DNA of 64,000 nucleotides, from assembly GCA_947446575.1 (NCBI GenBank), contig CANFHC010000008.1:62001-126000 (forward strand), written 5' to 3'. Positions 12,636-16,756 of this stretch are shown here, piece by piece. A model generated the notes under the pieces. That model was given only the letters and a program-made list of their open reading frames with translations. It ran no database searches and was not told the origin of the DNA. Position 1 is the first letter of the stretch, and each line of letters begins with the position of its first letter. The DNA comes from Bacteriovoracaceae bacterium (GTDB lineage Bacteria > Bdellovibrionota > Bacteriovoracia > Bacteriovoracales > Bacteriovoracaceae). Made by a program: the position numbers and the translations under genes.

Positions 12636-13448
12636 CTATAATTGAAATAAATCAAAACAAATAGAAGCAAGTTTCTCATCTTTTGATGAGCCGATTCTCT
12701 CAACCACCTGCTCTAGTAAAATGCCAAGTTTTTCTCGAACCCATTCGTAATCATCTTTTGAAAGACTCATAATCCCAGAATAATGTAAATTTTCAGAGCG
12801 GTTCATTTGCACTGATTCAATGGCGCGCAAACGCCAATGTGAATGGTGCTGAGTAAGAAATGGAGAGTCTTTTTCTAAGTGTAAAATAGATTTTTTAACT
12901 TTGTAGGCAGTTCCTTTTTTTTCAATAAGCTGGTGATCGGTCAGAAATTGTAAAACAGCAAGTATGCGATTGGTCGGTAGATTAAAATATTTGGTGAGAC
13001 TTTGAACATTTTGTAATTCAGGAATTAAAATCGCCATGTGAATTCCTGCATAATGCCAACTACTGTAATAAATCATCTGATTTTCAATCGACATTGTATC
13101 GCTAATATTTAATCGCTTTTTTAAGACTGCGTGTTGCTCGCATTGCTTTGATATTTGTTTGGCGAAAAAATTCTCGAGAGTCTTTGTCCCTGCTCTTTGC
13201 TTAAGCACTAGTAAGATAAAAAACTCCGTCTCGTTTTCATTTAAAGCAAGGTAGCGTGCTGTTGCTTCAGCCTGCTCTGGGCTAAAATGATAGTCCCCAG
13301 CTAAAACGTGAGTAATGAATGGAGTTTGGCAGCCTATCGCCTCTGAGAGGAGTTTTCTTTGACCTCTGCCCTGGAGTGGTGTTTTTTCCATCCAATCCAA
13401 AATATACTGCTTGTAATTTTTATACTCATAAAGAGACGATTTTTTCAT
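12636..13448 (-). CDS. TIGR02147 family protein (DUF4423), putative regulator
   Basis: 270-aa cytosolic protein that matches the TIGR02147 family, which is expanded in Fibrobacter and Bdellovibrio-like bacteria. The N-terminal part (YKNYKQYILDWM, then RGQRKLLSEAIGCQTPFITHVLAGDYHFSPEQAE) reads as a helix-turn-helix similar to Xre, followed by the family block YLALNENETEFFILLVLKQRAGT and a helical C-terminal domain (DUF4423). Its target is unknown. It faces a secreted-protein gene across a 128-base gap that holds a 9-bp dyad, a possible operator. Confidence 0.82.
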   Translation of the reverse strand: MKKSSLYEYKNYKQYILDWMEKTPLQGRGQRKLLSEAIGCQTPFITHVLAGDYHFSPEQAEATARYLALNENETEFFILLVLKQRAGTKTLENFFAKQISKQCEQHAVLKKRLNISDTMSIENQMIYYSSWHYAGIHMAILIPELQNVQSLTKYFNLPTNRILAVLQFLTDHQLIEKKGTAYKVKKSILHLEKDSPFLTQHHSHWRLRAIESVQMNRSENLHYSGIMSLSKDDYEWVREKLGILLEQVVERIGSSKDEKLASICFDLFQL

Positions 13449-13576: not shown

Positions 13577-14116
13577 ATGAAATTAATAATTGTTTTAGCT
13601 TCTATGATAAACATTGCCTACGCAGCAAGTGGTGGTATCAGTGGTGGTGGTGGGAATGTTGTAAGTCCAACCGCCCCCACAGCGCTTCAAGACCCAAGAG
13701 AGATAAGATCTATTATCAAAGGTTCTAAAGAGTTATTGTACAAATTTATTTCTGCCAAATATGCACTTTTTAAAACTGGCAGTATGGATGCAGATGACCT
13801 TCGTATGTATTCAGTTTTATTTGCCGATAATGAAATGAACCTCCATGAAGTTATGGAAGAAATTAAATTAGACATTCCTATAGATCAAGCTTGTTTTGAT
13901 CAAAAAGGAAGAGAGTATGATGGAAGCACTTTTAATACAAAAACAAATACTGTTTGTATCAGTGCTTTTACCATCGCCAAAAAAGTTGATATGTTCGAAG
14001 TGCCAGTTCAAGCAACAGCTTTAGTTTTACATGAGTTTAGCGAAGTTGCTGGTCTTTCTGATGAAGATGCAATTTCACTTCAATTAGAAGTTATCGACGA
14101 ATTAAAAAATTGGTAA
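13577..14116 (+). CDS. Secreted protein of unknown function with a glycine-rich N-terminus
   Basis: 179-aa protein with a short signal peptide (LIIVLASMINIAYA), a glycine-rich mature start (SGGISGGGGN) and a helical body. Two cysteines (QACFDQKG and NTVCISAF) could form a disulfide. Near the C-terminus, ALVLHEFSEVAG recalls a zinc-protease helix, but the second histidine of HExxH is replaced (HEFSE), so catalysis is not supported. GGTGGAG lies about ten bases before the ATG. The gene is divergent from the TIGR02147 regulator, which may control it. I do not recognise the family. Confidence 0.75.
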   Translation: MKLIIVLASMINIAYAASGGISGGGGNVVSPTAPTALQDPREIRSIIKGSKELLYKFISAKYALFKTGSMDADDLRMYSVLFADNEMNLHEVMEEIKLDIPIDQACFDQKGREYDGSTFNTKTNTVCISAFTIAKKVDMFEVPVQATALVLHEFSEVAGLSDEDAISLQLEVIDELKNW

Positions 14117-14734
14117 TTAGTTATTAAGCATGCCTTCGGACATCCAGCTTCTGAAGGCCTCTACAGTTTGAGCTGTTGGCACTGGTGCTTTACGATTTCC
14201 ATTAGCATCGATTGGTGGCATAGGTGTTCCTTCCATATCGCCAATATCTAATATATCTATAATCTCGCTAGCTCGCCTTTTTACGTTAGCGTAGCCTTCA
14301 AAAGACATTTCTTTTCCAGCATTGTTGTGACAAGACAAACAACTTTTTCCAATTAAATGAAATTGAATAGATTGGAATGTTGAATTTAAGGCAATCGTTG
14401 GAGCTCTCTTAGTTGTCATTATGTAACGCTCAACTAATTGTAGTTGACGACTTGGCAGTGCTCCTGATGGCGGCATCGTTCCTGATTTTATTTTCTGGTA
14501 AAGAATAGAATTTTCAGCATCACCCGAAATCATTCTTTGTTGAACAGAAGCTTCATCGCTGGCCCACGAGTGACAACGGATACAGCTGGGAGAAAGGACG
14601 TATGATTTCAGTGCGCTAAAATCAATATTTCCAGTGATCGGAACAACTTTAAATTGTTCACTTTCATTGGTACCAATATTAACTTTACAGCTAAAGACTA
14701 AAAGTAGAATTGAAAGGATTGGGAACATTTTCAT
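14117..14734 (-). CDS. Lipoprotein with two c-type heme motifs
   Basis: Predicted diheme cytochrome c lipoprotein of 205 aa. A lipobox (ILLLVFSC, Cys16) follows a short hydrophobic leader. Two CxxCH heme sites are present: PSCIRCHSW (residues 51-55) and KSCLSCHNN (132-136), each followed by a methionine-containing stretch (SGTMPPSG; GTPMPP) of the kind that supplies the distal ligand. I start at the ATG at 14734, one base after the stop of the upstream barrel gene, rather than the longer frame beginning at 14794, because only this start exposes a lipoprotein signal. Last gene of a four-gene redox operon; likely an electron carrier anchored to a membrane. Confidence 0.82.
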   Translation of the reverse strand: MKMFPILSILLLVFSCKVNIGTNESEQFKVVPITGNIDFSALKSYVLSPSCIRCHSWASDEASVQQRMISGDAENSILYQKIKSGTMPPSGALPSRQLQLVERYIMTTKRAPTIALNSTFQSIQFHLIGKSCLSCHNNAGKEMSFEGYANVKRRASEIIDILDIGDMEGTPMPPIDANGNRKAPVPTAQTVEAFRSWMSEGMLNN

Positions 14735-14735
14735 T

Positions 14736-15839
14736 TTACCACCATTGAATAAATCCTTGCAGTAAATGAGATACTTCATTGCTAGAATTAACATGTCTTA
14801 GTCTGCTTTCGTACATTAAAGTAAACGCGCGAAATAGTTTTCCTTGAAACATTAAACTATGCCTAGTTTCACTAGACTCGAAATCACGATCTTTTTTTAT
14901 CCCTTGAAAAGCATAGGCAATATTAAACCAATCGTTAGGGTGATAGGTAAATTGATTATAATATGTCCACTGGCCAAATTGATTGTGATCTGGATTTATT
15001 TTTCTGTGAGTGTAGTTAGCTTCTCCAAGATAGGAATACTCATTGAGACCGGCCTTCAAGAGAACACCAACTAATTCTCTTTTTATAGTGTCTGTTTTTC
15101 CAACAAGAACTTGTGGGCCAAAGCTTATATTTTTATTCCATAAATACCAAAACTGGCCACCCAGTCCTTTTTCTTGATTTCCTTTTAGTTCTAAGTAATG
15201 AGGAAGGTAGAGGAAATAATTTAATGTGTATTTTTCAAAGAATCCAAATGACCTAAAATTTATGGGAATGTCAGTTATCTGCAATCGATTATTTGCCCGA
15301 ACAAAATCAGTGTGATCAACAAGGCCCAAACCTAATGGCAGAGGTGATATGCCCAAAAAGTAGGAATGATTATTATTTTGATAATAATTTACTTCGGCAA
15401 TTCTAGCATAAACTCTTTGATAATCTTTTGGAGCATCTTTAGGATCGACATTATCAGGCCGTGGAGCAACGTCCACGCTTAAGTTTACTTTCCATTCTTT
15501 ACTAAAATCCATGCGGGCCAAGTATTCAGCTTCCATGGGGAAAATTCTATTTTTTGTCGGAGTTTTATAATCGAGAATTCTGGCCTGAAAAGCCTGTAAG
15601 TATTTTGCGTGTGAGAGTTTTTCTTCTTCTTCATCACTAAGTTCAGACGATTTCAAACTTTGAGTTGAAGAGATTCCTTTCCCGTAGGGAGTAAGCATAC
15701 CCCCACCGGCCGGATTATAGTGGCATCCGATACATGAATTGTATCCCAAACGAATATAAGTTGGATAAGCATAAGCGTCCTGACTATTAAAACTTATGCT
15801 TATCCAAGCAAATACTATGAGGGCAAAACTAGATTTCAT
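14736..15839 (-). CDS. Predicted outer-membrane barrel with an N-terminal CxxCH heme site
   Basis: 367-aa exported protein. After a signal peptide (ending near DAYA, residues 21-24) comes a single heme motif, YNSCIGCHYNPAGGGMLTPYG (Cys36, Cys39, His40), followed by some 320 residues of alternating strands rich in aromatic pairs and ending in LLQGFIQWW, typical of an outer-membrane barrel. A covalent heme at the barrel mouth would make an electron conduit, in principle like porin-cytochrome systems but within one chain. It lies three bases after yceI and one base before the two-heme lipoprotein. Barrel and heme loading are predictions. Confidence 0.75.
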   Translation of the reverse strand: MKSSFALIVFAWISISFNSQDAYAYPTYIRLGYNSCIGCHYNPAGGGMLTPYGKGISSTQSLKSSELSDEEEEKLSHAKYLQAFQARILDYKTPTKNRIFPMEAEYLARMDFSKEWKVNLSVDVAPRPDNVDPKDAPKDYQRVYARIAEVNYYQNNNHSYFLGISPLPLGLGLVDHTDFVRANNRLQITDIPINFRSFGFFEKYTLNYFLYLPHYLELKGNQEKGLGGQFWYLWNKNISFGPQVLVGKTDTIKRELVGVLLKAGLNEYSYLGEANYTHRKINPDHNQFGQWTYYNQFTYHPNDWFNIAYAFQGIKKDRDFESSETRHSLMFQGKLFRAFTLMYESRLRHVNSSNEVSHLLQGFIQWW

Positions 15840-15842
15840 TGA

Positions 15843-16358
15843 TCACTTTGCGCTCACATTAAAAGTAACTTCAACATTATCTAAAACACTAATACCCATA
15901 AATGTTGGGGCAGTTAATTTAAACTGATTCAACGAGACAAGTGCTTTTCCTGAGACGACTTTATTGGTTTTGTTGACCAATGCCTTAAATTTTATTTCAT
16001 TGCTCAAGTCTTTTATTTTGAGATTTCCGATGCAATCACATTCAACTTCAGAATTTGCAGAAGTAGGGCAAGACATTTTTAAGATGGTAAAATCTATTTT
16101 TGCCATTCCATTATTAGTCGCACTAAAAACTTTTTCGTGGAGGTGTTTGTCTCTTTTTTCCATACCAGTAGAAAGATTCATAACGTCCGCAGAAAAATTT
16201 GTCCCTTCCATTTTGTTAAAGTCCATTGAGACAATTGGGTTTTGTACTTCACCTTCAACTTCAATTCCAGGTCCATTTGTTTTTGCTGTAAATTTAATTG
16301 AAGATGTGGCCGCATAACTTTCGAGAGATAAAAGTGATAATAAAATTAAATATTTCAT
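15843..16358 (-). CDS. YceI-family periplasmic protein
   Basis: 171-aa secreted protein with a signal peptide (ILLSLLSLESYA) and the YceI pattern: strands forming a lipocalin-like barrel, the block NFSADVMNLSTGMEKRDKHLHEKVF, and a second half with DCIGNLKIKDLSNEIKFKALV. YceI proteins bind polyisoprenoids such as quinones and often lie beside cytochromes b561. Here the start overlaps the stop of the cytochrome b562-like gene by one base, and the CxxCH barrel gene follows after three bases. This supports a quinone- or redox-linked role in the periplasm. Confidence 0.85.
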   Translation of the reverse strand: MKYLILLSLLSLESYAATSSIKFTAKTNGPGIEVEGEVQNPIVSMDFNKMEGTNFSADVMNLSTGMEKRDKHLHEKVFSATNNGMAKIDFTILKMSCPTSANSEVECDCIGNLKIKDLSNEIKFKALVNKTNKVVSGKALVSLNQFKLTAPTFMGISVLDNVEVTFNVSAK

Positions 16359-16756
16359 TATTTGAAATCCTTGTGACCTTGCTTTTTCAAGTTACCCATT
16401 TGGAGGAGTAGATTTTTTGCTGAGTCAAGATTTCCAGCTTTAATAGCTGCATTGAAGTCGTTTGCTACAACTTCTAAATCTTTTAATTCTTGAACATATT
16501 TAGCTAGTGCAGGAGCTTGTTCAATATTCGGTAATGCTAATACAGTGTCAGGGGTAATTGTTTCTGACTCAACAATAAACTTTACGATACCATCTGATTC
16601 TGTCACCATTTTTGGTGTAATAGATCCAGCTTGTAATCCTAATGTAACAACTTTGAAACTAGCTCCTAGGTCTGACATAACATCTTTTAGTGGGCGTAAC
16701 GATTGCGCTTGTGCAGTTAGTGATGATATTAAAAGAATCATTGCTAAAAATTTCAT
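16358..16756 (-). CDS. Cytochrome b562-like periplasmic protein
   Basis: 132-aa secreted protein. After a signal peptide (FLAMILLISSLTAQA) the chain is almost wholly helical, as expected for a four-helix bundle. It has the two marks of cytochrome b562: a methionine near the mature N-terminus (LRPLKDVMSDLGASFK, Met27) and a histidine in the last helix (LKKQGHKDF, His128), the axial heme ligands in E. coli CybC. The NDFNAAIKAGNLDSAKNLLLQM segment also fits the family. First gene of the redox operon. Identification rests on pattern and context. Confidence 0.65.
   Translation of the reverse strand: MKFLAMILLISSLTAQAQSLRPLKDVMSDLGASFKVVTLGLQAGSITPKMVTESDGIVKFIVESETITPDTVLALPNIEQAPALAKYVQELKDLEVVANDFNAAIKAGNLDSAKNLLLQMGNLKKQGHKDFK

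Follow-up and report, generated by a model that had tools for sequence, protein, structure and literature searches.

A predicted Cyc2-like heme barrel encoded with YceI and a diheme lipoprotein in Bdellovibrionota

Organization of the locus

The window, i.e., the whole stretch of 64,000 nucleotides that was analysed (contig CANFHC010000008.1, positions 62,001 to 126,000, assembly GCA_947446575.1), comes from a Bacteriovoracaceae bacterium and carries on its minus strand four closely packed genes, listed here with the relevant sites of the third and with the neighbouring genes:

16358..16756, minus strand: cytochrome b562 family protein, first gene (PF07361, 9.8e-08, 33 bits against a cut-off of 30)
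15843..16358, minus strand: YceI-family periplasmic lipocalin (PF04264, 6e-14, 53 bits against a cut-off of 23.7)
14736..15839, minus strand: fused cytochrome-porin of 367 aa, with signal peptide, short heme-c segment and predicted 16-strand outer-membrane barrel (ORF and AF2 model), hereafter the barrel
15720..15734, minus strand: CIGCH heme-c motif, barrel residues 36-40 (sequence; conserved in homologues)
15534..15536, minus strand: Met102 codon of the barrel, in predicted strand 2 (130/130 homologues)
15312-15314, minus strand: His176 codon of the barrel (invariant in homologues)
15264..15347, minus strand: longest predicted extracellular loop, barrel residues 165-192, L3-like, with His176 (model)
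14117..14734, minus strand: diheme c-type cytochrome lipoprotein, start set at ATG 14734 (two CxxCH motifs and a lipobox)
13577..14116, plus strand: convergent exported protein of 179 aa, family not recognised (homologues adjoin the module elsewhere)
12636..13448, minus strand: DUF4423 protein (PF14394, 2e-13)

The b562 and YceI reading frames overlap by one base, three bases separate YceI from the barrel and a single base lies between the barrel and the lipoprotein, so that the four genes fit one operon. The ORFs, the Pfam matches and these junctions confirm the arrangement reported in the first-pass annotation, namely four tightly joined minus-strand genes for a b562, a YceI, a CxxCH barrel and a diheme lipoprotein. 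For the last of these, ATG 14734 was preferred to the listed ORF start at 14794, because the lipobox (LVFSC) fits this in-frame codon. Promoter and terminator scans of the locus gave nothing better than shuffled sequences. The DUF4423 gene, whose product we take, by annotation habit, to be probably a regulator, and the gene for the 179-aa exported protein also flank the module at four other loci (L023, L024, L130 and L159).

The barrel chain and its heme motif

No Pfam or NCBIfam family was matched by the barrel, and sequence searches against solved structures with the barrel, the YceI protein and the b562 protein returned no matches. Judged by eye, CIGCH lies about 12 residues past a plausible signal-peptide cleavage site, in accordance with the heme motif at the mature N-terminus that had been proposed for this chain. 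Among 130 distinct barrels, some of them closely related so that the counts overstate independence, C39, H40, G45, G47, Y52, M102, G170 and H176 are kept in all, and C36, G53 and G163 in 129. The exception at C36 is L065 (5651-6715), where the reading frame is broken exactly at the CxxCH, by assembly error or decay. The residues between the two cysteines vary freely, as they do in c-type heme motifs. Since the motif is near-invariant in 130 homologues whose distant members are only about 20% identical to each other, it is not due to chance, and its conservation, on which the earlier reading depended, is thus established.

The AF2 model of the barrel, built without heme from an alignment of 66 sequences of distant relatives that left out the close orthologues of the window, has a mean pLDDT of 77.6 and a pTM of 0.75, with 16 strands across residues 80-366; a barrel, and not a soluble chain, is therefore predicted. 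The heme segment is poorly resolved, residues 21-83 being mostly under 55. The nearest solved folds are OprO (4rjw; Z 23.2, rmsd 3.1, 288 residues aligned) and OprP (2o4v; Z 22.9). In the model M102 falls in strand 2 and H176 in the loop joining strands 5 and 6, which is the counterpart of the constriction loop of general porins. A plain Porin_O_P gene (PF07396) directly follows a heme barrel at another locus of the window's own genome (C28, L026:7176-8186).

The diheme lipoprotein, YceI and b562

The two CxxCH motifs of the lipoprotein are encoded at 14570-14584 and 14327-14341. In 33 aligned lipoproteins, C51, C54, H55 and M87 and, for the second motif, C132, C135, H136 and M172 are invariant, as is a Met-Pro after each CxxCH, and the lipobox cysteine is nearly so. 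Two class I-like His/Met heme sites are accordingly predicted from sequence, with Pfam scores just under the cut-offs for c-type cytochromes. The AF2 model is helical, with two loosely placed domains (pTM 0.52). A fold search with it was unproductive (best E 3.4), probably because AF2 folds without heme and the domains are loosely placed, and comparison with the sequences of solved structures gave a chance-level match only. The lipid-anchored Cys is followed by Asn, Gly, Lys or a similar residue, not by Asp; by the E. coli rule a residue other than Asp at this position favours the outer membrane, and by analogy this location is favoured for the lipoprotein.

Ubiquinone-8 binding is known for YceI proteins, as is a link to cytochrome b561 (PMC9113575). 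In the YceI protein of the window, cysteines 97, 107 and 109 are clustered (16030-16070); its closest homologue has all three and the others have two. In the b562 homologues linked to barrels, the Met and the C-terminal GH motif are kept in 7/7, as judged by eye.

A conserved module around the barrel

Within four genes of the barrel, YceI was found at 90 of the 130 distinct loci, another c-type cytochrome at 104, both at 75 and neither at 11. Restricting the count to the 97 loci where four genes could be seen to either side gave 71 with YceI, 82 with a c-type cytochrome and 61 with both. Where an adjacent YceI gene is on the same strand, it always precedes the barrel (57/57), at 20 bases or less or overlapping in 52 cases. 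The genome of the window has eight YceI genes, four of which lie within four genes of a barrel (C8, C18, C28 and C13), while random placement would put YceI there in about 2% of cases (an estimate from 8 genes in about 3,300). Distance matrices of barrel and YceI are correlated (Mantel r = 0.80, n = 88, permutation maximum 0.13), a correlation that in part reflects the common history of the species. Acidobacteriota (L197/L204) keep the order lipoprotein-YceI-barrel as well.

The two-heme lipoprotein does recur beside CxxCH barrels, and the conserved unit consists of lipoprotein, YceI and barrel. The four-gene set, proposed earlier as the unit, was not borne out: b562 occurs at 7 of the 130 barrel loci and is a lineage-specific accessory of the module, YceI and the c-type cytochrome being the recurring partners. 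The four-gene set was rejected as the ancestral unit on the same count. A cytochrome c assembly gene (PF01578) was present in 27/27 genomes tested and equally in 10/10 barrel-less genomes tested; because every tested genome has it, its co-occurrence with the barrel does not discriminate.

Several variants of the cluster were also encountered. At L026 (2085-4733, 882 aa), L100, L179 and L187, the cluster of YceI, diheme lipoprotein and barrel starts with the gene for a large lipoprotein that has four CxxCH motifs. After barrels of the GNGPLNDYGRA subtype comes a gene encoding about 340-390 aa (L025:2023-3114; same position in L006, L008 and L058-L070), the L025 copy of which gave only a weak TPR match. 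At L142 a gene with 21 CxxCH motifs comes next after the barrel, on the opposite strand.

Distribution of the barrel family

Barrel homologues were found in 19 of 37 genomes of close relatives, and a profile search of the phylum placed them in 201 of 291 sampled genomes and 104 of 162 genera, with five matches in the window's own genome. The barrel is thus not a local oddity: it is phylum-wide, with several copies in the genome of the window. Named genomes scanned with a single barrel subtype as seed gave records almost only from Bdellovibrionota, where Bdellovibrio sp. qaytius has family members, plus three from Acidobacteriota; in a sample of the latter phylum 4/119 genomes had a barrel. A divergent Acidobacteriota barrel with CSACHTNLTGGGKRN (L211:1342-2490), which has the same type of lipoprotein before it, suggests that the family is wider still. 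A literature search retrieved no paper naming Bdellovibrio together with YceI, and the titles and abstracts of the literature on both Cyc2 and Bdellovibrio apparently do not describe this barrel family.

Relationship with Cyc2

Cyc2 is a fused monoheme cytochrome-porin and an iron oxidase, for which OprO and OprP are the templates reported (PMC8406198). The statement of the first-pass annotation that known porin-cytochrome conduits use a separate cytochrome is therefore not supported, and a heme motif within the barrel chain has a precedent in the Cyc2 layout. The heme segments of the two families were compared as profiles, with Cyc2 homologues retrieved from plasmids by a query built on the published motif; these likewise adjoin c-type cytochrome genes. 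The hhalign score was 38.8 (probability 95.7, aligned in register), against a mean of 23.4 and a maximum of 29.5 for column shuffles that kept the CxxCH. A heme site of the lipoprotein scored 33.1 against the barrel with the CxxCH unmasked; because the motif alone raises scores, it was masked in a repeat of the comparison. Barrel and Cyc2 then scored 23.7, the match being carried by LT(P)YGR / LT-x-YGR, with a shuffle maximum of 15.0, and the masked lipoprotein sites scored 7-14 against Cyc2 or the barrel. As the masked match stands above its controls, the barrel family and Cyc2 are probably related in the heme segment.

Among the features of Cyc2, the lone CxxCH near the mature N-terminus is present in the barrel, a fused 16-strand barrel of OprO/OprP type is predicted, and the length of at least 365 aa set by the FeGenie rule is marginally exceeded by the 367-aa precursor. 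Upstream of the CxxCH, AXPXFAR[Q/K][T/Y] is absent; the window has AYPTYIRLGY at this place and the family consensus is A-x-F/Y-P-E/x-x-V/I-R/G-H-G-Y. The PXL located four residues downstream of the CxxCH is absent as well, the window having NPAGGGMLTPYG, with LT-x-YGR alone common to both. No invariant Met or His of the Cyc2 alignment matches M102 and H176. With both motifs and these counterparts missing, the barrel is not classed as Cyc2 itself; the name of a Cyc2-like sister family suits it best.

Proposed function

It is probable that the module carries electrons across the outer membrane, and by a route so far unstudied. Our preferred reading, held with somewhat better than even confidence, is that the Cyc2-like monoheme barrel acts as a redox portal exchanging electrons with a solute outside, in company with the diheme lipoprotein and with YceI as mediator or lipid protector. 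Heme c would be attached to the barrel CxxCH in the periplasm, and the heme segment may plug or line the periplasmic side of the pore, with His176 in the strand 5-6 loop as a candidate second heme ligand or substrate site. A small redox-active solute would enter the pore from outside and trade one electron with the barrel heme; on the periplasmic side the lipid-anchored diheme cytochrome would then take up the electron and hand it to the pool of soluble cytochromes. YceI might bring a bound isoprenoid or quinone as lipophilic mediator, or protect nearby lipids, and b562 would be a further soluble carrier in the lineage of the window. A complete trans-envelope electron path remains putative.

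A strict Cyc2-type iron oxidase, oxidising Fe(II) in the pore either for energy or to keep it from the periplasm, would agree with the layout, the fold class and the related heme segment, and Cyc2 PV-1 does oxidise Fe(II) (PMC8406198). We nevertheless consider it unlikely, given that the diagnostic AXPXFAR[Q/K][T/Y] and PXL are missing, that the Cyc2 alignment has no invariant residues corresponding to Met102 and His176, and that several paralogues in the one genome of a heterotroph, often a predator, are unlike the pattern of iron oxidisers. Rather improbable in our judgement is an envelope antioxidant of the BcnA/LcoA kind, in which YceI would carry quinol and the cytochromes would pass on electrons so that peroxyl radicals of the outer membrane are quenched: no partner is linked to the barrel more tightly than YceI, and in concert with a cytochrome b561 the YceI protein BcnA guards against lipid peroxidation (PMC9113575), but no Pfam match to a membrane cytochrome b561 was found among the four operon genes, and a heme-bearing pore is not obviously needed for lipid repair.

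The linkage to c-type cytochromes at 104 of the 130 loci would be difficult to account for if no electrons flowed, which makes it very unlikely that the protein is a substrate-specific porin whose heme serves only for gating, sensing or channel stability, electron transfer being incidental, even if its nearest folds are those of ordinary solute porins and a Porin_O_P gene follows the heme barrel in the L026 cluster. We give hardly any credence to a CxxCH devoid of heme and serving as a disulfide or metal site, in view of an exact motif with free xx residues, its kinship to the Cyc2 heme segment, the cytochrome c partners and an assembly gene in every genome tested.

The redox-portal reading can be extended to a distinct phylum-wide class in which the pore heme, with His176 as ligand or substrate site, would be wired to the diheme lipoprotein and a quinone-carrying YceI, and which would have been multiplied in Bdellovibrionota to several copies per genome for different extracellular, possibly prey-derived, redox solutes; we put this forward tentatively, as possible and rather doubtful. 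Most of the fused cytochrome-porins known so far come from iron oxidisers. If the portal reading is true, single-heme electron exchange at the outer membrane extends beyond iron oxidation, in a family present in about two thirds of the sampled genomes of a phylum with many bacterial predators, and the widespread, poorly understood YceI proteins gain a testable redox partner. Since the genomes carry several copies and relatives such as Bdellovibrio sp. qaytius can be cultured, the proposal is directly testable.

Comparison with known systems

MtrAB, PioAB and MtoAB share with the module an outer-membrane barrel working with c-type heme, but theirs has 26 strands and encloses a separate decaheme, whereas the barrel of the window is predicted to have 16 strands and carries the heme motif in its own chain. 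An MtrAB-type conduit was rejected on the 16 strands, the single heme motif and an operon without a decaheme gene; a conduit in that sense is unlikely because one heme cannot alone span the outer membrane. The phosphate-selective porins OprO and OprP have the same barrel fold (Z about 23), but they are without heme and about 13% identical to the barrel of the window.

BcnA/LcoA (PMC9113575) likewise combine a YceI lipocalin with a genetically linked cytochrome; their partner is the membrane cytochrome b561, while the window has a c-type lipoprotein and a heme barrel, with a soluble b562 in its own lineage. In Cbp2D of Cellvibrio, a YceI-like domain is associated with two c-type cytochrome domains, as the corresponding proteins are here, but in a single secreted multidomain protein for polysaccharide oxidation, without a barrel (PMC8981238).

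Cyc2 of Mariprofundus and Acidithiobacillus (PMC8406198) is alike in its N-terminal CxxCH, its OprO/OprP-like 16-strand barrel, the LT-x-YGR and a c-type cytochrome gene nearby. Unlike Cyc2, the family of the window has CHxxPxGGGxLTxYG and the invariant Met102 and His176, is linked to YceI and to a lipid-anchored class I-like cytochrome, and is found in Bdellovibrionota and a few Acidobacteriota.
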